From NCBI RefSeq assembly GCF_000427965.1, contig NZ_ATZA01000021.1, positions 17,649 to 81,648 of the forward strand: a DNA stretch of 64,000 nt. Reading direction: 5' to 3'. The stretch is from Olivibacter sitiensis DSM 17696 (GTDB lineage: Bacteria; Bacteroidota; Bacteroidia; Sphingobacteriales; Sphingobacteriaceae). Under the pieces are notes generated by a model, which saw only the letters and a list, made by a program, of their open reading frames with translations, did not search any database and was not told the DNA's origin. Positions within the stretch are counted from its first letter, which is position 1. Each line of letters starts with the position of its first letter. The position numbers and the translations under genes are program-made. Below are positions 34,257-51,138 of the stretch, piece after piece.

Positions 34257-34976
34257 ATGAACTACAACCTAATTATTTTATCAATCAATTGTTCAATAAT
34301 GAATGAATATGTGACTAATGAGGGTCTGAGGGATCCCAATAAGGGTACGATGTCTTGTGCTCTTGCCTGTCAACTGATAATATTATGTTTATTATCGTTG
34401 ATCTTTTTTTTGCCGTCTGTTCATGCCCATACTGCTATTGCTTCCTTACAAGATACGGTAATCACCGTAAGCGGTGTGGTGCGAGATCAGAATGGCATTT
34501 TACCGGGCGCTACCGTACGGGTCGTTTCCGACAGTACGAAGTTGGCTGTCACCAACACAAATGGGGAGTATATCATCGAGGTAGCCCATAATAGCACCTT
34601 AGAGTTTTATATGGTAGGCTATGTCTCCCAACAAATAAACGTGAACAAAGAAAACGTGATCAACGTGACCTTGGTAGAATCGAACAATGACCTGAACGAA
34701 GTAGTGGTGATAGGCTATGGTGCCCAAAAGCGCATCACGTTGTCGGGATCTGTTTCTACGGTTTCCTCCAAACAGCTTAAGCAAAGCCCGGTAGCCAATC
34801 TGAGCAATGCCTTGGCGGGGAGACTGCCAGGTCTTTTGTCCGTGCAGAACAGCGGGGAACCAGGTGCAGATGCCGCAAGGATCGTGATACGCGGCTTCGG
34901 TACCTATGCGGGTGGTGCGCAAAATCCATTGATATTGGTCGACGGCGTAGCACCGCCAGTACCCACTAAAAGCTAG
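34257..34976 (+). pseudogene. SusC-like receptor, 5' fragment
   Basis: 239 codons with the N-terminal part of a SusC receptor: signal-like hydrophobic segment at about 44-60, CarboxypepD_reg-like domain (about 71-145, ITVSGVVRDQNGILPGATVR), the TonB-box-like region NEVVVIGYGAQKR, then the first half of the plug (LSNALAGRLPGLLSVQNSGE, IVIRGFGTYAGG, PLILVDGV). It stops right after the D-G-V motif, where an intact receptor would continue with the I-E-S-I-x-V-L-K-D pattern. Several in-frame ATGs near the start make the exact beginning uncertain. The barrel is missing. The upstream operator is retained. About 245 bp of unrelated sequence follow before lctP. Confidence 0.85.
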
Positions 34977-39735: not shown

Positions 39736-40473
39736 TCACATACTTGGTTTGGGAGGAAACGAAAGTATTTTTGAGCTGATCGATTTAAAAAAATTTTCTC
39801 TGTATGCGTTTCCGATAGGGATATTTTTGTCGCCATGCAATACGCTGACAACATTCCCCTCCACAGCGGTTATTTGTTTCAGCGAAACGATAAAGGATTT
39901 GTGTATCCGTAGGAAGTCGCTCTTTACCAATTGACGCTCTACATCTTTTAGGTTGAGATAAGCAGGGATACGTTGCCCATCGTCCGTGTGGATGATGACA
40001 TAGTTTCCGAGCCCTTCAATGAAAGTGATGTTCTTGGTGTGGATTTTCAGTAGTTTTCCTTTTTGTTCTGTTTTCACAAAAAAGTACGATTCGTTGCTGT
40101 CATTTGAGACTACGCTTTGGCTATGCTTTTCTTGCAATTTATTCACGGCCTTTAGGAACCTGGAAAAAGAAATGGGCTTAAGCAAATAATCCAATACGGC
40201 ATATTCAAATCCTTCGATGGCGTAGTCGCGATAGGCTGTTGTGATGATCACTTGAATGTCTCTGTTTAGCTGTTTCAGGATCTCTATTCCTGTCAAATCG
40301 GGCATCTGTATGTCCAGCAAGACCAGTCCATTTTGCATTTGATGGAGCAAGGTAAGCCCAACTACTGGATCCGTGGTGGTATCAACTAAATTCAGGAAAG
40401 GAACTTTCTCCACATGATGTGCCAGTAAATCTATCGCATGTTGTTCGTCGTCAATAATAATACAATCTATCAT
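39736..40473 (-). CDS. LytTR-family response regulator
   Basis: 245 residues from ATG at 40473. Receiver domain at about 1-118 with acidic pocket IIIDDEQ, phospho-acceptor Asp in LVLLDIQMPDLTG (about 54), Thr in IITTAYRDY and Lys in DYLLKPISF. LytTR DNA-binding domain at about 140-240 (FLRIHKSFIVSLKQITAVEG). Its start overlaps the stop of the kinase gene (TGATG), so the two are translationally coupled and form a cognate pair. Confidence 0.93.
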   Translation of the reverse strand: MIDCIIIDDEQHAIDLLAHHVEKVPFLNLVDTTTDPVVGLTLLHQMQNGLVLLDIQMPDLTGIEILKQLNRDIQVIITTAYRDYAIEGFEYAVLDYLLKPISFSRFLKAVNKLQEKHSQSVVSNDSNESYFFVKTEQKGKLLKIHTKNITFIEGLGNYVIIHTDDGQRIPAYLNLKDVERQLVKSDFLRIHKSFIVSLKQITAVEGNVVSVLHGDKNIPIGNAYRENFFKSISSKILSFPPKPSM

Positions 40474-41558
40474 CAATATAGCGGTATTTTCAAAAGCACA
40501 CTGAAGCTTAACTGTTCATCTTTCAATAACAAGGTATAGTTATCGCCGTACATCAATCGCAAACGCTGCTCTACATTTTGCAGACCTATGCCGTTAGATA
40601 GTTCTTTAACGCCTTGTCCTTTCTTGTTCTCTATATAGAACGATAATTGTTGCGCATTGGTATTCAGGTTGATAACAAGTGGGTGATTCCTGTCTTGCAG
40701 ATCGCCATGCTTAAAGGCATTTTCTACCAATGTGATGAGCACCAACGGAACGATAGTGGCCGATGGATTGACAATATGTTCATTGTATATGATGTTCAAG
40801 CTATTGTTGTGTCGCATTTGGTTTATCTCAATGACATTTTTCATGTGTGTCACCTCTTTATCGATCATTACTTTTCCGTCGGCATCCTCTTCTTTTCCCA
40901 GTGCATAGCGCATGATGTCTGCCAGTATGAGAACAGATTGTGCCGTGTCTTCATCCAATTTAATGGTTTTTCCATAGATGAAGCTCAAAGAGTTGAAAAG
41001 AAAATGGGGATTGATTTGGTGTTTCAAAGCATTTAGCTCAGCTTCAGCTTTCTGTTTCTCCAGAATAATCTGCTGTTTGCTTTTGCGTATCCACTCGATC
41101 ATCACTGCAGCTGAAAAGCAAATTATCAGGTCAAAAACGTAAAAGATAGTACCCCAGAGCAAAAACCAGTAGATACTGGTTTGGGCAATTACACTGTTTG
41201 ATAGGGCGGTAGTTTCTTCTTGAGATGTAGTGGCAAAGTCCCAATAAGCCAGACTTATTTTTTCAATAAATAAAAGACCTACGATAGCAAATGTATATTT
41301 TCGGTTGCTTTTGCGCATAAAAGGAAGAATGGCACAGAATATCAGGATATAATAAACAAAAACGCCTTCTAGGGTTAAAAGCAACAGGTTGATTCCTATA
41401 CCATGTCTCTTTCCAAACTCGCTAATGGCTTTGTCGGGATCGGAGATATAGGATATGAAAAAGACAAAAGCGAAAAGCAATGTCTGAAATAAGACCAGCA
41501 CAGCGATACGCTTTTGGTTCTTTCTAAGAAACGCTATGATTTTCGACAATAGGTGCAT
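40473..41558 (-). CDS. Sensor histidine kinase, LytS/YehU type
   Basis: 361 residues from ATG at 41558; a TTG at 41567 would overlap the upstream stop. Four helices in the first 165 residues and no large periplasmic domain. A short coiled stretch leads to the His_kinase domain: KHQINPHFLFNSLSFIYG (phospho-acceptor His at about 202) and VPLVLITLVENAFKHGDLQD (N box at about 283). G-x-G near the end (ELSNGIGLQNVEQRLRLMYG). It follows the WD40/Omp85 gene by 5 nt, which suggests that the outer-membrane protein and the kinase serve one function. Confidence 0.92.
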   Translation of the reverse strand: MHLLSKIIAFLRKNQKRIAVLVLFQTLLFAFVFFISYISDPDKAISEFGKRHGIGINLLLLTLEGVFVYYILIFCAILPFMRKSNRKYTFAIVGLLFIEKISLAYWDFATTSQEETTALSNSVIAQTSIYWFLLWGTIFYVFDLIICFSAAVMIEWIRKSKQQIILEKQKAEAELNALKHQINPHFLFNSLSFIYGKTIKLDEDTAQSVLILADIMRYALGKEEDADGKVMIDKEVTHMKNVIEINQMRHNNSLNIIYNEHIVNPSATIVPLVLITLVENAFKHGDLQDRNHPLVINLNTNAQQLSFYIENKKGQGVKELSNGIGLQNVEQRLRLMYGDNYTLLLKDEQLSFSVLLKIPLY

Positions 41559-41563
41559 AATAA

Positions 41564-43588
41564 TCAAAATGTCAAGCCTATACCGCCGGAAATACCCAGA
41601 TCGCCTCGTGTCGTGAAAGAAAGGTCAACGCGCGATTGAAGTTTCAGTTTTGGAATAATCTGTTGCCTATACCCCGTGCCAAATACCCCAACAATCCGAG
41701 GGGTGTAGTTCTTGAAAAAACTGGGGGCTACATCACCTGCACCTGCAAATAGCACATACCCATACCTCGGGTCAATGTCGCTGAAATTGGATCTCAGTTC
41801 ACCCTGTACGGCAATAGCCTGCCTGTCGATATATAAATTGCGCCAAACACCACGCAAGATCCTGTCGGCAGATAGATGCGGCAATTGATAAAAGGGGATA
41901 TCGCCGCCATAGGTATTGTGGTATATGGCTTGAAAGGCTATCGTCGTGCCATCCGTCAGTATATGTAATGGATAAAAACTCCGGTAATCAAGCTGGAGGT
42001 CATTGTATTCAAAATCACTGCCTATTCGGTTGTCATAGCGTATGAAAGATAAATCAATGTAACGGCCTTTCGTGGGGAAAAGCAGGTCATTGCGGGTGTC
42101 ATAGCGGAGGACTGCGCCAATGCCAGCCAAGAAACCTCCTTCATTGTCGGGAACTGGCCATGAGCTGGATGTGTCATATTCCAATGGGCTATCATTGCGC
42201 ACATGATATTTGATGCCTGCAAAAAAGCGATCCTTTATCAATTTGGCTACTTCTCCTTCCCATGAGAATATATGGTTATGATAAACGGAATTCCTGCCCC
42301 TATCGGCATCATGGCCTATTCCAAAGAAGAAAGATCGGTTGTTTTTGAGAAAGCCAATCTGATTGAAAAAACGCCATCCACGCCTATGAAAATAGTCGGC
42401 ATGGATGCTGGCCTGCCATTGTCCGTTGAAACCATATGAAACCATAGGGGTGAGGGAAGATGGACGGAAGAAGTGTGATTGGGCCTGCTGGCTACCTTCG
42501 TTATCGTTGAATACAAAACTCATTCCCATTCCCAATATCATACTTGCTTCTGGAGTATAGCTGATAATAGGTAACGGAACGATATTTACTTTTTTCGTGG
42601 AGCCGCCTAGAAATGCGTCGTCGGGCTGCGCACTGGTATGCTTTTGTGCGTTTTTCTTGGGCCAGTTGCTATTATCGACAAGATGCCAAACATGTTGCTT
42701 GTATACGCTCAATTTTCCTTCTTCAAAACCTACGGCAGCCTCTATGCCTTCCATACTGTCCACTTTTAAGCTGTCCTGCAAGTCCCATATGCTGAGGTGG
42801 CCTACGTCGTCCAAACTCATCAGATGCCTGCCGTCAGGCGCATAGGCCAGTTGCGTAATAGCGCCTTTTTCCGTACGGAGACTATGAATTACCCGATCTG
42901 CTTGGAGATCCCTAACTTCGATGACGTTTTTGTGATTGACGCTGGCATATTGGTGTTTCATGGTAGGATTGAAAATCAGGTTTTTCAATCTCGAAGCTTC
43001 CCAATTTACTTTTTTTTTCCGTAAGGTTTTTGGGTCAATATCCCAGACAATTGATCTTCCGGCAGCTAGCAATTGCGAATTGTCATCATCGATGGCTAGG
43101 CTATTGGCATAATCGCTAATGGAACGGCTGTTGTGCAAATGCCAGTTTTGCGTATCATAAGTGGATAGGTACGCTTTCCAAAAGGATCTGGAGTGGATTA
43201 AATAGGCCGTGCCACCGTCTTTTGTAAATGCAACGGTTTCGATCACAAAAGGCAATATCTGCTTTAATTGGCAAGCATTGTCTATATCATATATGTATGT
43301 CGTTTTTTCTTTTTTGGAAGAATAAAGTACCCATCTGCCATCGTCGCTTATCGTGTAGAAGTAAGGGATTTCCGAACTGGACAGGTCAATGGTGCCGATC
43401 TCTTGATTTGATAGAATATCCGTCACGATGAGCTGTCCATCCCTGTATCCTATGGCTTTTTTGCCTTTAGCCGCTAAGATGCTTTTAGGATGAGATGAAG
43501 TAAGGTCTTGAGCATGAACAAATACAATAGGGTGCAAGCAAAATATGGATAAAAAAGTGATTCTTAAAACAGTGTTCATAAAAAGCAT
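41564..43588 (-). CDS. WD40 propeller fused to an Omp85/BamA-type outer-membrane barrel
   Basis: 674 residues. Signal peptide (ITFLSIFCLHPIVFVHAQ). Residues about 30-310 are WD40/propeller-like with YAPDGRHLMSLDDVGHLSIW as the clearest blade. A linker (about 310-345) leads to a C-terminal barrel of about 330 residues with Omp85 features: GIGAVLRYDTRNDLLFPTKG at about 498-517, RYIDLSFIRYDNR, GRxxx-type turn ADRILRGVWRNLYIDRQAIA and a terminal Phe (GGIGLTF). POTRA domains are absent; the propeller stands in their place. First gene of the operon with the LytS kinase and LytTR regulator. It may be a sensor or partner-binding porin; no published function known to me. Confidence 0.8.
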   Translation of the reverse strand: MLFMNTVLRITFLSIFCLHPIVFVHAQDLTSSHPKSILAAKGKKAIGYRDGQLIVTDILSNQEIGTIDLSSSEIPYFYTISDDGRWVLYSSKKEKTTYIYDIDNACQLKQILPFVIETVAFTKDGGTAYLIHSRSFWKAYLSTYDTQNWHLHNSRSISDYANSLAIDDDNSQLLAAGRSIVWDIDPKTLRKKKVNWEASRLKNLIFNPTMKHQYASVNHKNVIEVRDLQADRVIHSLRTEKGAITQLAYAPDGRHLMSLDDVGHLSIWDLQDSLKVDSMEGIEAAVGFEEGKLSVYKQHVWHLVDNSNWPKKNAQKHTSAQPDDAFLGGSTKKVNIVPLPIISYTPEASMILGMGMSFVFNDNEGSQQAQSHFFRPSSLTPMVSYGFNGQWQASIHADYFHRRGWRFFNQIGFLKNNRSFFFGIGHDADRGRNSVYHNHIFSWEGEVAKLIKDRFFAGIKYHVRNDSPLEYDTSSSWPVPDNEGGFLAGIGAVLRYDTRNDLLFPTKGRYIDLSFIRYDNRIGSDFEYNDLQLDYRSFYPLHILTDGTTIAFQAIYHNTYGGDIPFYQLPHLSADRILRGVWRNLYIDRQAIAVQGELRSNFSDIDPRYGYVLFAGAGDVAPSFFKNYTPRIVGVFGTGYRQQIIPKLKLQSRVDLSFTTRGDLGISGGIGLTF

Positions 43589-43748
43589 TGATCAGTAAAT
43601 GTTCTCCAAGGAAAAGCCCTTGGATAGACTAAAGCTACAATGTTACTTAAATACAGCTTTTTCCCCAATTATATTATGTCAACTAGAGGATTGGAGGTGT
43701 AAACAAACAGATGCTATATGGCAAGTGTATAAACGGTCTCGCTGATTG

Positions 43749-46700
43749 TCAAGCATCATGTTTCAAATGGAGCACATAGGTACTGGGACTGACGCCAAAT
43801 TGCTTCTGGAAGTCCCTGGAAAAATTGGTAGGAACACTATACCCAATCTGATAGGCTACCTCATTTATCTTGTATCGTCCTTCGGCCAGCAGCTCCGCCG
43901 CACGCTTTAAGCGTGTCAAGTGAATAAGTTCGTTGGGAGTAAGGTTCGAAATGCCTTTGATCTTACGATATAAGGTTGGCCTACTCATATGCATTAATTC
44001 GGATAGCTTTTCAACGTCCAGTGTACTATCCATTATATATTTGTTTATTTCCTCATTAAGCCGCTCCAGAAAGTCTTTGTCTGTCTTGGAGTAAGCCATC
44101 CCTTTGATATGGGTCAAGGGCGAATTGGCAAAATAGTTTTTCAATTGATCTCTGCTGGCCAGCAAATTGTTGACTTGTGCCAATAGGTAATCGAAGGCAA
44201 AAGGTTTTTCGATATAGGCATCGGCTCCCGTCTCCAATCCTTCGATCTTGGACTGTATGCTGTTTTTGGCTGTCAGCAGCACAAGGGGGATATGGCTGTA
44301 TTGGATATCGTTTTTAATCGCCTTGGTCAGCTCTATGCCGTCCATCACGGGCATCATGATGTCGCTAATGATAAGGTGTACCTGCTCTTGCTGAAGTTGG
44401 GTGAGTGCCTCTTGGCCATTTCGGCTTTTGATGACACGATAGCTGTTAGCAAGTTCATGTGCTAGGTATTGGAGTATTTCTGTGTTGTCTTCCACGAGCA
44501 AGATAGTTGGCAAAGCAACTTGTTCTTTGTCGGACAGGTTATCCTCGTCTAGAGCAGTTTCTTCCTTTCGCTCCTCATGGTCTATGATTTCCAGTTCATA
44601 GTCTTGGTGTATAGGGATGGAAAGCACAAAAGTGTTCAATTGATCCGAACTATTCGTGATTTCAAGTGATCCTTTGTGCAGCTCGGCCAGGGAGCGGGCG
44701 AGGGGCAGGCCAATACCGGTGCCAGATACCTTGTCGGATTCCTGGGTGCGGTAAAAGGGTTCGAATACTTTCTTCTGCTCTTCCTCTCTGATGAGTGGAC
44801 CATCGTTCCTGAACTCGATATGGAACAACAAGTCATCGCTGCTGAAAGGCAACATGCGCACATGAACCTGCTCTTGGGCATATTTGATGGCATTGCTAAG
44901 TAGGTTGCCGATTATCTTTTTCATGGCTTCGGCATCTACGAAGGCATGTAACGTCATTCTGGGCAAACGTAAGGTATAGGAGAGCGCTTTGTTGTCGGCT
45001 GCTGGCTTAAAGCGGTCGAACTCTGCTCTCAACAGCTCATTAACATCTGTCTTGGAAAAATTCAGACTGAAACTATTGGCTTCTGCCTTTCTGAAATCGA
45101 GCAGTTGGTTAGTCAAATTGATCAATCGATCGGTGTTTTTTTCTATCATAAGTAAGCTTTCATTCGTTTGTTCATTCCCTTCGTGCTGTTTGATTAGCTT
45201 ATCCAGGGGCATTTTGATAAGGGTGAGAGGCGTTCTGATCTCGTGGGCAATATTGGTAAAGAAATCGATTTTGGAATGATGTATTTCCCGTTCCTTGCTC
45301 AGTTCAAAAGACTGCATTCGCTCCTTTTCCTTTGCCTTCAAAGCTAGGTAGTAATATCGAAAAACTACGGTAACAATCCCTAAAAACGTAAGTATATATA
45401 ATGAATAGGCAAAATTTGTAGCCCAAAATGGAGGGCTAATGGTAATATGCAATCTTTTTTCCATTTGGTTCCAAAGGCCATCGCTATTGCTCGCCTTCAA
45501 ACGAAAAACGTAATGCCCGGGAGCCAGTTTGGTATAGTAGATCTTGCGATTGTCCTCTAGGCTGATCCATTCATTGTCTAGGCCGTCCATCTTGTACCTA
45601 TAGCGGTTTTTCTCCGGAATGCTATAGCTCAGTGCTGCTACACTGAAGTTGATGTTTGCCCTATCATAACTCAGAGTGAGGCTATCCGTATATAAAATGG
45701 ATTTCTTCAATATTTGATCATCGCCATGTAGGCCAATAGGCCTATTGTTTATCTCCAGTCCCGTTATATATAGGGGAGGTACAAACGTGTTTTGTAGAAA
45801 ATTGCTAGGGCTGAAACTGATCATGCCTTTTACCGTACCAAAATACATGGTGCCATCGCTATCGGCAAAAGAAGAATTGTAGTTGAACTGCTCGGTGGGA
45901 AGTCCATGGGCCGTATGGTAATGGTCAAATTTCTTTGCTTGGGCATCGTATTTGTTTAATCCCTTTGCCGTAGAAATCCAATACAACCCCTTGTCATCTT
46001 CCATGATGCGAAATACCTGGTTGTCCGTCAGCCCATTTGCCGTGGTATAGTGCTGGAACTTATCTTGCTGGGGATCATATTTGCTCAGCCCTCCCTCCGT
46101 ACAGAACCAAAGATGGCCATTGCTGTCGCGGTAAACGTTGTTTACATAGTTGTTGATGATACTTGGCTTTCCTGAAAGATGTTCCAAATGGCCGCTTACT
46201 TGAAGGCTATCTTGTTGAAAGTATACCCCATTGCCGTAGGTACCTACCCAAAGCGTACCCCGGACGTCCTCGGTGATGGACTGTATATGTCCATTGAAGA
46301 ACGGAAGTTGCACGAAATGATTTTTACCTCGGTCGTATCGGTATAGTCCACTCCATGTCCCCACGAGTATTTCTCCCTTTTTCGTTTTATAAAGACAAAC
46401 GATAAAGTTGCTGCCGAAATTGTGTTCCATGGCCGTGTTGTAATGGCGAACTACCTTACGGCTTTTCAGGTCCATTACATCCAGTCCGTGTTCATAGGTG
46501 CCTATCCACAACTCATCTCCATCGGCTACCAATCCATGTATGTTGCGGTAGCTAATGCCTCCAGACTTTCCGCTTGGCAGAAAATGTTCAAACTGCCCCG
46601 TTTTCGTGTTCCATCTGTTCAGCCCGGCATCTTCCGTGCCTATCCAGAGTGAGCCATATTGATCCTTGCAGATTTCGTGTACAATATCCCCGCTGATGCT

Positions 46701-47702
46701 GTTCTTACTAGGTTCGGCATAATACTTTCGGAAATTGTTGAAGAGACCGGAATAATAGTTGACGCCACCAAAGAAGGTACCTACCCATATGCCTCCTTCA
46801 TGGTCTTTGTATATACTGGACACGGTATTGTCCATGATAGCATCCATTTGCCCTGATTCCTTATCGAGGATAGTCGTGTGCTTGCTTTTGAGATCATATA
46901 GGTACATGCCGCTTTCCGTACCAAACCAATAGGTGGCGGCATTTTGATGGAAAATGCTGTGGCTTTGTACTTCCGAGCTGGGCAGATCGGCAAAGACGGG
47001 TTGGATACGTTTTGTTTTATGATTGAACAGATAGGTCTGGTTGATGGCACCTATCAAAAGAGCACTATCTCCCACGGCATGGATCACATTGATGGGTTTG
47101 TCTTGTGTATCGAAGCTTTCAAAGCGGCTTTCTTGCGTCAGGAAGCGCTTCACCTTGCCGGCAATGGTGGCTATCCAGATATCTCCGTTCTTGCTGATGT
47201 GCAATGAGCTAGTCAGATCATCTTTCAGTACAATTGCCGTTAGTCGTCTCTTGTGCGGTGTGTATCGATACAGCCTATTGCTGGATATAATCCATATATT
47301 ACCTTCCCTGTCTCCGTCGATAAATCGGATTTCTCCTTTGGGTATGATAGGTAAAGGGACGAAGGCTTCCTTTTTGGGATAATAAATGTACACACCGTTA
47401 TAAGAACCGACCCATATATGCTCATCCTTATCTTCATAAAGGCTCAATATAGAATTGCTTCCTAGGCTGAGGCTATCTTGCAAATCGGTTTTAAACACTT
47501 TGAAATGGGTGCCGTCAAAGCGATTCAATCCATTGCGCGTGCCGAACCACATGAATCCTTTTTTGTCCTGAAGTATAGACGTGATGGTATTGCTCGATAG
47601 ACCATCGGATACCTGATAGCTCTTGAAATAATAAGTAGTTGGGCCAGCCCAACCGTATAGGTAGCCGAGCCATAGGAAGATGCATGCATATAGGCTTTTC
47701 AC
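43749..47702 (-). CDS. Hybrid two-component system regulator (HTCS) of the dextran locus
   Basis: About 1317 residues. GTG at 47702 gives a clean signal peptide (KSLYACIFLWLGYLYGWA); a TTG three codons earlier is the alternative. The periplasmic sensor is two seven-bladed propellers of Reg_prop repeats (about 25-690) and a Y_Y_Y domain (about 695-755). One helix at about 765-787 crosses the membrane. The cytoplasmic part has HisKA (FFTNIAHEIRTPLTLIKMPL, His at about 833), HATPase, receiver (TILLVEDNTEI, Asp in IISDIMMPVMDG) and an AraC helix-turn-helix at the C-terminus. HTCS proteins sense a glycan fragment and switch on the adjacent PUL. Divergent from susC at 48055. Confidence 0.95.
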   Translation of the reverse strand: MKSLYACIFLWLGYLYGWAGPTTYYFKSYQVSDGLSSNTITSILQDKKGFMWFGTRNGLNRFDGTHFKVFKTDLQDSLSLGSNSILSLYEDKDEHIWVGSYNGVYIYYPKKEAFVPLPIIPKGEIRFIDGDREGNIWIISSNRLYRYTPHKRRLTAIVLKDDLTSSLHISKNGDIWIATIAGKVKRFLTQESRFESFDTQDKPINVIHAVGDSALLIGAINQTYLFNHKTKRIQPVFADLPSSEVQSHSIFHQNAATYWFGTESGMYLYDLKSKHTTILDKESGQMDAIMDNTVSSIYKDHEGGIWVGTFFGGVNYYSGLFNNFRKYYAEPSKNSISGDIVHEICKDQYGSLWIGTEDAGLNRWNTKTGQFEHFLPSGKSGGISYRNIHGLVADGDELWIGTYEHGLDVMDLKSRKVVRHYNTAMEHNFGSNFIVCLYKTKKGEILVGTWSGLYRYDRGKNHFVQLPFFNGHIQSITEDVRGTLWVGTYGNGVYFQQDSLQVSGHLEHLSGKPSIINNYVNNVYRDSNGHLWFCTEGGLSKYDPQQDKFQHYTTANGLTDNQVFRIMEDDKGLYWISTAKGLNKYDAQAKKFDHYHTAHGLPTEQFNYNSSFADSDGTMYFGTVKGMISFSPSNFLQNTFVPPLYITGLEINNRPIGLHGDDQILKKSILYTDSLTLSYDRANINFSVAALSYSIPEKNRYRYKMDGLDNEWISLEDNRKIYYTKLAPGHYVFRLKASNSDGLWNQMEKRLHITISPPFWATNFAYSLYILTFLGIVTVVFRYYYLALKAKEKERMQSFELSKEREIHHSKIDFFTNIAHEIRTPLTLIKMPLDKLIKQHEGNEQTNESLLMIEKNTDRLINLTNQLLDFRKAEANSFSLNFSKTDVNELLRAEFDRFKPAADNKALSYTLRLPRMTLHAFVDAEAMKKIIGNLLSNAIKYAQEQVHVRMLPFSSDDLLFHIEFRNDGPLIREEEQKKVFEPFYRTQESDKVSGTGIGLPLARSLAELHKGSLEITNSSDQLNTFVLSIPIHQDYELEIIDHEERKEETALDEDNLSDKEQVALPTILLVEDNTEILQYLAHELANSYRVIKSRNGQEALTQLQQEQVHLIISDIMMPVMDGIELTKAIKNDIQYSHIPLVLLTAKNSIQSKIEGLETGADAYIEKPFAFDYLLAQVNNLLASRDQLKNYFANSPLTHIKGMAYSKTDKDFLERLNEEINKYIMDSTLDVEKLSELMHMSRPTLYRKIKGISNLTPNELIHLTRLKRAAELLAEGRYKINEVAYQIGYSVPTNFSRDFQKQFGVSPSTYVLHLKHDA

Positions 47703-47711
47703 AAGCGTCAA

Positions 47712-48054: not shown

Positions 48055-51000
48055 ATGAAATTTTGTCAAATGAAAATTGCCTTCACCAAGGCAATTAAGG
48101 GAAGTATTTTTCTGAAGCTATTCGCGGTAGGTATATATCAAGTGATTTCCTTGCCAAGTGCAAGTTACGCTACCTATCTGCCTATCCCCATCGAAAGGCA
48201 ACAGCAAGAGATAATGGGAGTAGTGCGCGATGCAAATGGGCAAGCGTTGCCAGGTGTCACGATCCTGGAAAAAGGGACTACCAACGGCACCACTACCAAT
48301 GAGGGTGGAAAATACAGTATAAGGGTGGCAAGCAGCCAAGCGGTACTGGTATTTCGCTCAATGGGCTTTGTAGAACGCGAGGTGCCAGTCGCTAACCGAA
48401 ATGAGATCAATATCTCCCTTGCTGAAAATGCCGCCCAATTGGAACAGGTTGTGGTGGTAGGGTATGGCTCCCAGCGTAAGAAGGACCTGACCGGAGCCGT
48501 GGGCACGGTAAAGACGGAAGAGATAAAGGGCTTGCCCGTGCCGAGCCTCAGTGATGCCGTACAGGGTAGAGTGGCCGGTGTACAGGTGGTAGCCTCTGGT
48601 ACGCCGGGATCCGATGCTACATTTAGAGTGCGTGGTACGTCTACGATGAACAATAACAATCCACTTCTGGTGATAGACGGTGTTCCTGTGATGAGCGGTC
48701 TAAACAGCATTAACCCGGATGATATCGAGTCCATGCAGGTGCTCAAGGATGCTTCGGCCGCTGCAGTATACGGATCGCGTGGCGCCAATGGTGTGGTTAT
48801 TATTACTACCAAAAGGGGCAAAGGACTGTCTAACCAGCTCAATGTAAATGCCTTTACCGCTTGGCAAAATGCTACAAATATGGTAAAGATGTTGAATGCC
48901 AGTCAGTTTGCAGAGTTGCACAACGAGATGATGTCTGCCAATAACCAAGCGCTTAACCCTGAATTTGCCAATCCTAGCACTCTGGGAGTGGGAACGGATT
49001 GGCTGGACAATATATTCCGCACGGCACCCATGCAGAACTATTCCATATCCTATACGGGCAATTCCGAAAATGCCAATTATTATGTTTCTGCCAATATCCT
49101 AGATCAGAAAGGTATTGTTAATAATACGGCATACAAACGTTACACGCTGCAATTCAACAGCGACCATAAGCTGTTCGATAGGTTGACCTTTGGCAATAGC
49201 TTGACCTTGAATCACGATTTGAAGCCCCAAAATGCATACAATATACGCGAGACCATGGCTGCATTGCCCACGCAGGCCATCTATAACGAAGATGGAACCT
49301 ATGCAGGCCCTATAGGCCCGGCCAACTGGGTGGGCAATATCCGCAATCCGGTAGGGGTAAACAACTTGGTGGAGAACAATACCAAGGGCTATAACATCAT
49401 CGGTAATATATACGGCAGTTGGGAAATCATCGATCACCTGACTTTCAAGTCTACGGGCGGTTTGCAGGCCAATTTCTGGGATGATCGCACTTGGTCCCCC
49501 GCCTATAGCTGGAGCCCTACACCAGAACCCTATTCTTTCCTTTCCCAGGGAAGTAATAAGGCATTGACTTGGCTGTGGGACAATACCTTGACCTATGACA
49601 ATTATTTCAACGAGGTGCACCACGTCACGGCATTGCTAGGTACCAGTGCCCAAAACAACCGCTTCGATACCATGTTTGGCTCCGTGCAAGGCTTTGCCAG
49701 TGATGTGACGCAGCAATTGAGCAATGGGATCATGCCGCCTACGCTGGGCGGCACGGCCAATGAATGGGCCCTGATGTCCTACATTGGACGGGTCAATTAT
49801 GATTATAACGGTAAATACTTAGTTACGGCTACCATCAGACGCGACGGATCCTCGCGTTTTGGGCCTGAAAACAAATACGGTACGTTTCCTTCCGTATCGG
49901 GTGCATGGCGCCTGTCGGAAGAAGCTTTCCTAAAGGACGTAGCGTTTCTCAACGATCTGAAACTACGTGCCGGCTACGGACAGACGGGCAATCAGGAAAT
50001 CGGCAATTATACCTTTGCGGCGGTGCTGAACACCGGTCAGTATAACTTCAACGGCAATCTGGTCCCAACGGTGACACCAGATGCCATGCCCAACCCATTT
50101 GTGCGTTGGGAAGCCGTGGCACAGAGCAATATCGGTATAGATGCTTCCTTGTTTCAGGATCGCTTGTCCATTACGCTGGACGCTTACCTGAAAAACACGG
50201 AGGACATGCTCGTGCAACAAGTTGTACCTATCTCTACAGGCTATTCGGGAGACAGACCTTATGTCAATATCGGTGCCATGCAAAACAAAGGACTTGAACT
50301 GACCATTACCAGCCAAAACCTGAAAGGTACGCTGGATTGGAATACCAATTTCAATGTATCCCTCAACCAGAACAAGATTAAGCGCTTGGATGGCAACGTA
50401 CCCATTCCTGCCAATGGCATTGGCCTCAATCAGTTTCTTTCCCTGCAGCAAGTGGGCATGCCCGTGGGATCATTTTATGGTTTTGTAACGGACGGTATCT
50501 TCCAGACACAGCAGGAGATAGATGACCATGCGGTGCAGGTACCCGGTCAGGATCCGTTCAACAGGACTTCGCCCGGCGATATCCGCTTCCTTGATATGAA
50601 CAACAATGGAGTCATTGATGATGATGATCGGGCCATTATCGGTAATCCCAATCCCAAGTATATTTTTGCCATGAACAACAGCCTTTCCTATAAAGGGATA
50701 GATTTTAGCCTGTTCTTACAAGGAGTGGCTAAGGTGGATATCTATAATGCCAACCTCGCATGGCAGGAAGGCATGGCGGTAGCCGAAAATCAAACCATAG
50801 CTGTACTGGATCGATGGACTGGCCCAGGTACCAGCAATACCATGCCCAGAGCTATCTTCAACGACCCCAATAAGAATACACGTGTTTCGGATAGGTTTAT
50901 AGAAGATGGTTCGTACTTGCGTATCAAGAACGTCACCTTAGGCTATACGTTTCCGGCGTCTCTTACCAACAGGATAGGCGTTGGGAGTTTGCGCTTGTAT

Positions 51001-51138
51001 ACATCTGCCCAAAATCTTTTGACCATCACCAATTACAGCGGATTTGATCCTGAAGTTGGGGTAGGAGGTATAGACAATGGTGTATATCCGGTGACGCGCA
51101 CCATCAGCGTGGGACTTAATGTAGGCTTTACAAAATAG
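48055..51138 (+). CDS. SusC/RagA TonB-dependent receptor
   Basis: 1027 residues, complete. N-terminal signal region to about residue 43, CarboxypepD_reg-like domain (about 52-130, IMGVVRDANGQALPGVTILE), linker LEQVVVVGYGSQRKKDLTGA, plug (PLLVIDGVPVMSGLNSINPD, IESMQVLKDASAAAVYGSRG, ANGVVIITTKRG) at about 145-265, and a 22-strand barrel ending YPVTRTISVGLNVGF. Imports glycan oligosaccharides across the outer membrane with TonB energy. First gene of the dextran PUL; susD follows after 19 bp. An ATG four codons in is a possible alternative start. Confidence 0.96.
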   Translation: MKFCQMKIAFTKAIKGSIFLKLFAVGIYQVISLPSASYATYLPIPIERQQQEIMGVVRDANGQALPGVTILEKGTTNGTTTNEGGKYSIRVASSQAVLVFRSMGFVEREVPVANRNEINISLAENAAQLEQVVVVGYGSQRKKDLTGAVGTVKTEEIKGLPVPSLSDAVQGRVAGVQVVASGTPGSDATFRVRGTSTMNNNNPLLVIDGVPVMSGLNSINPDDIESMQVLKDASAAAVYGSRGANGVVIITTKRGKGLSNQLNVNAFTAWQNATNMVKMLNASQFAELHNEMMSANNQALNPEFANPSTLGVGTDWLDNIFRTAPMQNYSISYTGNSENANYYVSANILDQKGIVNNTAYKRYTLQFNSDHKLFDRLTFGNSLTLNHDLKPQNAYNIRETMAALPTQAIYNEDGTYAGPIGPANWVGNIRNPVGVNNLVENNTKGYNIIGNIYGSWEIIDHLTFKSTGGLQANFWDDRTWSPAYSWSPTPEPYSFLSQGSNKALTWLWDNTLTYDNYFNEVHHVTALLGTSAQNNRFDTMFGSVQGFASDVTQQLSNGIMPPTLGGTANEWALMSYIGRVNYDYNGKYLVTATIRRDGSSRFGPENKYGTFPSVSGAWRLSEEAFLKDVAFLNDLKLRAGYGQTGNQEIGNYTFAAVLNTGQYNFNGNLVPTVTPDAMPNPFVRWEAVAQSNIGIDASLFQDRLSITLDAYLKNTEDMLVQQVVPISTGYSGDRPYVNIGAMQNKGLELTITSQNLKGTLDWNTNFNVSLNQNKIKRLDGNVPIPANGIGLNQFLSLQQVGMPVGSFYGFVTDGIFQTQQEIDDHAVQVPGQDPFNRTSPGDIRFLDMNNNGVIDDDDRAIIGNPNPKYIFAMNNSLSYKGIDFSLFLQGVAKVDIYNANLAWQEGMAVAENQTIAVLDRWTGPGTSNTMPRAIFNDPNKNTRVSDRFIEDGSYLRIKNVTLGYTFPASLTNRIGVGSLRLYTSAQNLLTITNYSGFDPEVGVGGIDNGVYPVTRTISVGLNVGFTK

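Follow-up and report, generated by a model that had tools for sequence, protein, structure and literature searches.

A WD40-Omp85 gene in one operon with a LytS-like kinase and a LytTR regulator in Olivibacter sitiensis: a candidate mobile, self-regulated envelope-response cassette

Gene layout at the locus

A three-gene unit was analysed in Olivibacter sitiensis AW-6T, a soil bacterium that its genome description (PMC4149018) assigns to the family Sphingobacteriaceae with 4,565 genes. The unit, referred to below as the trio, occupies positions 39736-43588 on the minus strand of a 64,000-nucleotide stretch of contig NZ_ATZA01000021.1, here called the window; the assembly comprises 5,053,571 bases in 110 contigs. 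The trio encodes a WD40-Omp85 fusion protein, a sensor kinase and a response regulator with a LytTR domain. Its features are as follows, with positions of the window.

41564..43588, minus strand: WD40-Omp85 fusion gene, 674 residues (reading frame and Pfam)
43511..43588, minus strand: signal peptide, placed by eye at residues of about 1-26 (the model has a helix at 2-22, and Q27 does not vary among 11 fusions)
42635..43492, minus strand: WD40-type beta-propeller, residues about 33-318 (Pfam, model and structure matches)
41567..42589, minus strand: 16-strand Omp85 barrel, residues about 334-674, with conserved RG at 579-580 (Pfam, alignments and model)
40473..41558, minus strand: PF06580 sensor kinase, 361 residues from the ATG (Pfam; four N-terminal hydrophobic segments, without a sizeable periplasmic domain)
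39736..40473, minus strand: response regulator with receiver and LytTR domains, 245 residues (Pfam)
43697..43705, minus strand: LytTR-type direct repeat 1, TGTTTACAC (matrix scan)
43676..43684, minus strand: LytTR-type direct repeat 2, AGTTGACAT, 12 base pairs (bp) from repeat 1, giving a 21-bp period (matrix scan)
43638..43645, minus strand: TAACATTG, resembling the Bacteroidota -7 box (consensus TAnnTTTG), 30 nucleotides after repeat 2 (offset comparison)

The kinase ATG at 41558 lies 5 nucleotides past the stop codon of the fusion gene and the regulator ATG at 40473 overlaps the kinase stop codon as TGATG, both as given in a preliminary description of this DNA. A TTG at 43666-43668 sits in the -33 region, where Bacteroidota promoters have a second box. 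A sigma-70 scan gave 11 matches, no excess over a mean of 10.0; 3' of the trio, its own strand showed no terminator-like site. The trio has no excess of guanine plus cytosine (GC), with 42.1% compared to 44.6% and 44.8% in the DNA beside it.

Domains and fold of the fusion protein

Pfam analysis of the fusion revealed the Omp85 family PF01103 at 31.1 bits against a cut-off of 24 (profile positions 12-198 of 325). WD40-type families appeared mostly at residues 140-286, each under its own cut-off, and the NCBIfam family Omp85_fam scored 73.1 bits, under its cut-off of 200. No POTRA family was found on the fusion in Pfam at expectation values (E) up to 0.1, and the N-terminal part was modelled as a propeller. 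The full-length model was confident for the propeller only and poor for the barrel, which was modelled separately with 36 alignment rows. The predicted local distance difference test (pLDDT) score was mostly 79-93 for residues 41-300, and the propeller model matched WD40 propellers with Z of about 23-24 over residues of about 32-318. Among the 50 structure entries listed for it, most were WD40 propellers of eukaryotes; TolB is not thereby excluded. The barrel-only model (pLDDT 82.5) contained 16 strands and its top matches were BamA (Z 26.4, root-mean-square deviation 3.0 over 304 residues) and TamA (Z 25.8). In a sequence search against solved structures, the best 60 of 356 matches to the fusion profile all came through the propeller. 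Coordinates, Pfam and models agree with the signal peptide, propeller and Omp85-type barrel that the preliminary description had placed in one 674-residue chain, including its view that the propeller stands where POTRA domains would be.

In the models the propeller's final strand stops at residue 305, and the barrel's first strand begins at 334-336. Arginine 579 and glycine 580 were invariant in 11 fusions and likewise, numbered R260 and G261, across the 36-barrel alignment; the conserved RG motif of Omp85 proteins has its role in loop 6. Sequence divergence is faster in the propeller (mean identity 0.34) than in the barrel (0.50). By its barrel domain and RG motif the fusion belongs to the Omp85 superfamily, and with its WD40 propeller and Omp85 barrel without POTRA domains it has the architecture of the WD40-Omp85 subfamily. 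This is one of ten Omp85 subfamilies listed by Heinz and Lithgow in 2014, who compared it with a BamA-BamB fusion (PMC4104836).

Kinase and regulator

The kinase matched the His_kinase family PF06580 (70.2 bits in Pfam) and showed four N-terminal hydrophobic segments joined by short loops, besides a weak fifth peak in the ATPase part. Up to E 0.1, neither 5TMR-LYT nor any other Pfam sensor domain was found on it. A true LytS carries a 5TMR-LYT sensor region, and the kinase is named LytS-like here because no such domain was reported. The regulator matched Response_reg and LytTR in Pfam. A PF06580 kinase with an adjacent receiver-LytTR regulator constitutes a LytS/LytTR-type two-component system; the pair named in the preliminary description stands, except for LytS in its strict sense. 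A total of 21 PF06580 matches were found in the O. sitiensis genome, so that a random gene (21 matches, 4,565 genes) has a chance of about 1% of having such a kinase as neighbour.

Distribution of the fusion and the trio

Fusions were surveyed in 201 genomes of the family, in a scan of named genomes with an alignment as query and in a scan of 399 family genomes. A scan of genome contigs with a single protein found no relative, and the alignment scan found 10 loci. The 201 genomes contained 11 fusions in nine genomes; among the matches listed, the others were barrel-only (frames of 241-451 residues). A fusion of S. phlebotomi was added by both the named-genome and the 399-genome scans and one of Pedobacter cryoconitis by the named-genome scan only, giving a total of 13.

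Comparison of the neighbourhoods revealed that a kinase and a regulator adjoin 10 of the 13 fusions (9 of the 12 besides the window), in five genera and two gene orders. No probability is claimed for this adjacency because the loci are related. Apart from the window, trios were found in another genome of the same genus (G037, twice), O. jilunii, Parapedobacter composti, Sphingobacterium haloxyli, S. phlebotomi, P. cryoconitis, Mucilaginibacter aquatilis and M. roseus. The two Mucilaginibacter loci have the order kinase, regulator, gap and barrel, with barrel and pair about 340 bp apart. All trios found belong to one family, which includes Pedobacter. The preliminary description had held that a trio confined to its own lineage would speak against it; the trio reaches five genera, but every one of them lies in this family.

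Barrel-only paralogues had no kinase or regulator match at any of 24 loci (most covered about 1.5 kb beyond the match, complete frames of at least 200 residues), and two barrel-only paralogues of the O. sitiensis genome had neither gene in flanks of about 7 kb. A scan of 395 genomes of the phylum at E 1e-40 gave, besides the fusion's own match, one protein, a barrel without a propeller; this cut-off is so strict that distant propeller fusions would be missed.

A frameshift in the propeller part, either real or an assembly error, interrupts the S. phlebotomi fusion gene (L051 6007-7873); kinase, regulator and promoter site are present there. In M. aquatilis an M23 peptidase gene (L047 7004-8101, minus strand) lies directly 3' of the WD40-Omp85 gene, and in M. 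roseus an apparent M23 peptidase homologue, judged by sequence likeness, likewise follows the barrel. These neighbours are a weak hint of a cell-wall link in Mucilaginibacter.

Co-inheritance and a block shared between two genera

Comparison of distance matrices for nine of the ten trios (S. phlebotomi was omitted owing to its split fusion) gave correlations of 0.93 for barrel and kinase, 0.93 for barrel and regulator and 0.88 for kinase and regulator, none of them reached in 2000 permutations. Furthermore, a block of 4,026 bp with 97.2% identity was found in P. composti (L041 5246-9271) and S. haloxyli (L042 8093-12118). It extends from 114 bp before the barrel start, about 30 bp past the repeats, to 23 bp after the regulator stop codon, and in an ungapped comparison identity just outside drops to 25% and 27%. 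The block has 50.5% GC compared to 41-42% elsewhere in the P. composti and S. haloxyli stretches. From these features we infer that the block may be a recent acquisition, perhaps by both genera from elsewhere, in which the repeats and the three genes would have moved together. By plain counts, the barrel genes of the two species differ by 32 amino-acid-changing and 26 silent codon differences and the kinase genes by 11 and 19.

Promoter site

A matrix for the two 9-bp repeats was assembled from upstream regions of trio barrel genes and of genes for a lipoprotein that accompanies related kinases (described below). Each region was cut at the first possible start codon of its frame; if a gene in fact starts further inside, its site may have been overlooked. 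Trained on 13 promoters, the matrix gave the held-out window site 31.4 bits, compared to a maximum of 3.4 in 200 shuffles. When each promoter, or its whole group, was withheld from training, 12 of 14 outscored all 298 other upstream strings (305 were taken and seven with a true site dropped), and the promoter L079 was outscored by one string. The 21-bp repeat period was sharp, with 6.14 matches out of 9 compared to 1.8-3.4 for the remaining offsets. In all 14 chosen promoters a -7 box lies exactly 30 nucleotides after repeat 2 with five or six of six positions matched, whereas the average at other offsets (20-44) was 1.1-2.6 positions. The box lies outside the stretch that trained the matrix and was not used in finding the repeats; TAnnTTTG is described as the -7 element of flavobacterial sigma-A (PMC9723704). 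A general repeat finder did not recover these imperfect promoter repeats.

Autoregulated LytTR operons are reported to carry 9-bp repeats with 12 bp between them, immediately before the -35 element (PMC6193735), and judged by its sequence the trio promoter has the layout of such an operon. The self-regulating device put forward in the preliminary description, which had proposed a search for LytTR target repeats, finds support in the LytTR-type site of the trio promoter. The three lone fusions, those without a kinase-regulator pair, lack a full site; the O. domesticus one seems to retain a half-site (1 of 200 shuffles scored as high). Before the kinase of locus L086 a weak site of 9.0 bits was found, equalled in none of 200 shuffles and by 5 of 298 strings.

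With a site pattern drawn up after the sites had been seen, the O. sitiensis genome contained one zero-mismatch match, at the trio promoter, and zero-mismatch matches also lie at the trio in P. composti and S. phlebotomi. With up to one mismatch, the O. sitiensis genome gave eight matches compared to five for a reversed control. Since matches with up to one mismatch show no excess over the control, we claim no regulon outside the trio operon. Two one-mismatch matches precede other kinase genes and are perhaps sites of those systems. The first, in O. sitiensis (contig C14, L112), lies on the opposite strand some 0.2 kb before a further PF06580 kinase, possibly a second LytTR system with similar repeats; the second is in O. 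jilunii.

A lipoprotein as alternative partner

Analysis of 399 family genomes with a kinase alignment (E 1e-65) revealed 20 places in 18 genomes, of which 9 lie beside a WD40-Omp85 gene, 10 beside a gene for a lipoprotein of 131-135 residues and one, with a shortened kinase, beside neither. A class scan of 395 genomes with the kinase at E 1e-60 gave only three partial matches outside the family (223-253 bits). The lipoprotein family (L079-L081, L083-L089 and L056 9717-10109) has a lipobox, seen by eye, and the motifs PSYFGKTY..NVDVY and GADGV. No family scored above its cut-off in Pfam (five members) or NCBIfam (three members); a YdgH/BhsA-like Pfam family appeared under its cut-off in two of the five. 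Four matches to solved structures (best E 0.15) were taken as chance. A likeness to RcsF is our own supposition. No relative of the lipoprotein was found in O. sitiensis, and P. cryoconitis, a genome from another collection, has both barrel and lipoprotein partners.

Six of 11 lipoprotein promoters share the site and spacing of the trio promoters. An unrooted tree built from 19 kinase-regulator pairs places the lipoprotein-linked groups at opposite ends, one of them beside P. cryoconitis, and the barrel-linked pairs between them. Partners therefore seem to have been gained or lost repeatedly.

Other genes beside the trio

The trio is flanked on one side by a hybrid two-component regulator that contains a Reg_prop propeller (window 43749-47711) and, by eye, by a divergent SusC-like receptor (48055-51138); these two probably form a separate polysaccharide-use locus. 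A 239-residue frame at 34257-34976 resembles, by eye, the N-terminal part only of a SusC-type receptor and seems to be a truncated gene.

Discussion

We regard the trio as, rather probably, a horizontally mobile, positively autoregulated envelope-response cassette with the WD40-Omp85 protein as its output. This draws on what was observed by computation, namely the domains, the folds, the operon layout, the spacing of repeats and -7 box, the co-inheritance and the block common to two genera. The kinase, with its four predicted transmembrane segments, would respond to a signal within the inner membrane or close to it by phosphorylating the LytTR regulator, which would bind the two direct repeats upstream of its own operon promoter. 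Binding would activate the operon, so that WD40-Omp85 protein, kinase and regulator rise together in positive feedback; in relatives the regulated output may instead be the lipoprotein plus the pair. By analogy with the Omp85 superfamily, the output barrel may insert, repair or pass a client, with the periplasmic propeller as a putative docking platform replacing the POTRA domains. The barrel is considered output and not sensor because the pair occurs without the barrel, the barrel occurs without the pair and the site lies in the barrel promoter.

Several observations weigh against this reading. Three of the 13 fusions (O. domesticus, Olivibacter sp. XZL3 and a second S. haloxyli copy) have no pair. 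A search of 15 genomes found lipoprotein relatives in 8, in some cases apart from the pair: the lipoprotein of O. domesticus, that of G037 and the second P. cryoconitis copy have no kinase within their short flanks. No neighbouring gene names a client for the fusion. The 14 promoters (8 of trio barrel genes and 6 of lipoprotein genes) were chosen by eye from 29 upstream regions and represent about eight lineages, since two near-identical and six related ones are among them. The remaining 15 regions have no clear site, among them those of both Mucilaginibacter trios, the L086-L089 group and the region upstream of the P. cryoconitis lipoprotein. When left out, the O. jilunii site (L046) was equalled by 37 of 298 strings and is indistinguishable from them, and the site pattern missed it; in S. 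haloxyli the single zero-mismatch match lies away from the trio. With up to one mismatch, the six trio genomes gave 37 matches against 52 for the reversed control. LytTR sites that overlap the -35 element can repress (PMC11347149), so activation is here deduced from the position of the site only. The sharp limit of the shared block is qualified by matches of 163 bp (87%) and 55 bp (84%) some 0.3-1.3 kb further upstream at both loci; the block may therefore once have been longer, or have lain beside a shared gene.

The preliminary description had suggested an outer-membrane sensor, in which the propeller-barrel would sense the surface or the periplasm and signal to the kinase. The kinase itself agrees with such a role, since its hydrophobic segments are joined by short loops only and Pfam shows no sensor domain in it, as do the close co-inheritance of barrel and kinase and the usual first place of the barrel gene in the operon. 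We nevertheless consider this sensor unlikely, as relatives keep the pair without the fusion in 11 of 20 places, 10 of them beside the lipoprotein, and lone fusions occur; the sensor would have to be replaceable by an unrelated protein. Another view, held here only tentatively, is that of a mobile envelope-sensing module in which one kinase-LytTR subfamily with one promoter site has an exchangeable regulated partner, propeller-Omp85 or lipoprotein, that reports the state of the outer membrane to the kinase. Stress responses linking an Omp85 barrel with an outer-membrane lipoprotein exist, and an exchangeable-partner module, if true, would be a Bacteroidota counterpart of them.

It is quite improbable that the propeller is a passenger taken through or by the barrel to the surface, in the manner of type Vd secretion. 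PlpD offers a precedent, its Omp85-type barrel bringing an N-terminal enzyme domain to the surface (PMC4104836), and the faster divergence of the propeller would suit a displayed domain. In the fusion, the stretch between the final strand of the propeller and the first of the barrel is shorter than 30 residues, and no POTRA domain was found. The 16-strand barrels of Omp85 proteins have both ends in the periplasm, which also argues against display. Least of all do we expect a chance or lineage-bound arrangement, in which a common LytTR pair settled beside a barrel gene; that would be very surprising. PF06580 kinases are indeed common in the genome and the trios found are restricted to one family, but 10 of 13 fusions in two gene orders, the shared promoter site and the two-genus block speak against it, as does the lack of such a neighbour at the 24 barrel-only loci within the stretches covered there.

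Comparison with known systems places the WD40-Omp85 subfamily closest, as it has the same N-terminal propeller and Omp85 barrel without POTRA domains. The available text of PMC4104836 offers only hypotheses on its function and does not mention a kinase, a regulator, a promoter site or transfer as a unit; it names TolB as structurally nearest to its WD40 domain, whereas mainly eukaryotic WD40 propellers were listed here. BamA and TamA have the same 16-strand barrel fold but are universal, whereas few relatives have the fusion, which bears a propeller instead of POTRA domains. BtsS/BtsR of Escherichia coli is the same kind of LytS/LytTR pair, with a single direct envelope-protein target. As far as described in PMC4847170, YpdA/YpdB of E. 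coli likewise combines a LytS-type kinase, a LytTR regulator and a tandem-repeat site with a single direct envelope-protein target, yhjX. The latter is a putative transporter, whereas the candidate target here is an Omp85 protein in the regulator's own operon; in contrast to both E. coli systems, no 5TMR-LYT domain was reported in the kinase studied here. The LytTR regulatory systems (LRS) of Streptococcus mutans share, in the account of PMC6193735, 9-bp direct repeats 12 bp apart and an autoregulated operon. They have a membrane inhibitor protein where the trio has a kinase and a receiver.

A search of the openly licensed literature found no paper on Omp85 together with LytTR and found WD40-Omp85 named in PMC4104836 only; among the matches listed, titles and opening abstract lines do not describe the three-gene unit. 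The preliminary description knew of no system of this form. The fusion architecture is already known, having been listed in 2014, and the control elements are each of a known kind; their union as a mobile, apparently self-regulated unit appears to be undescribed. The dedicated, apparently autoregulated pair provides a handle on the barrel, since an inducer of the promoter would reveal the purpose of the barrel. Overall, our analysis suggests that Omp85 barrels, beyond the core assembly machines, can be acquired as self-contained, regulated accessories.

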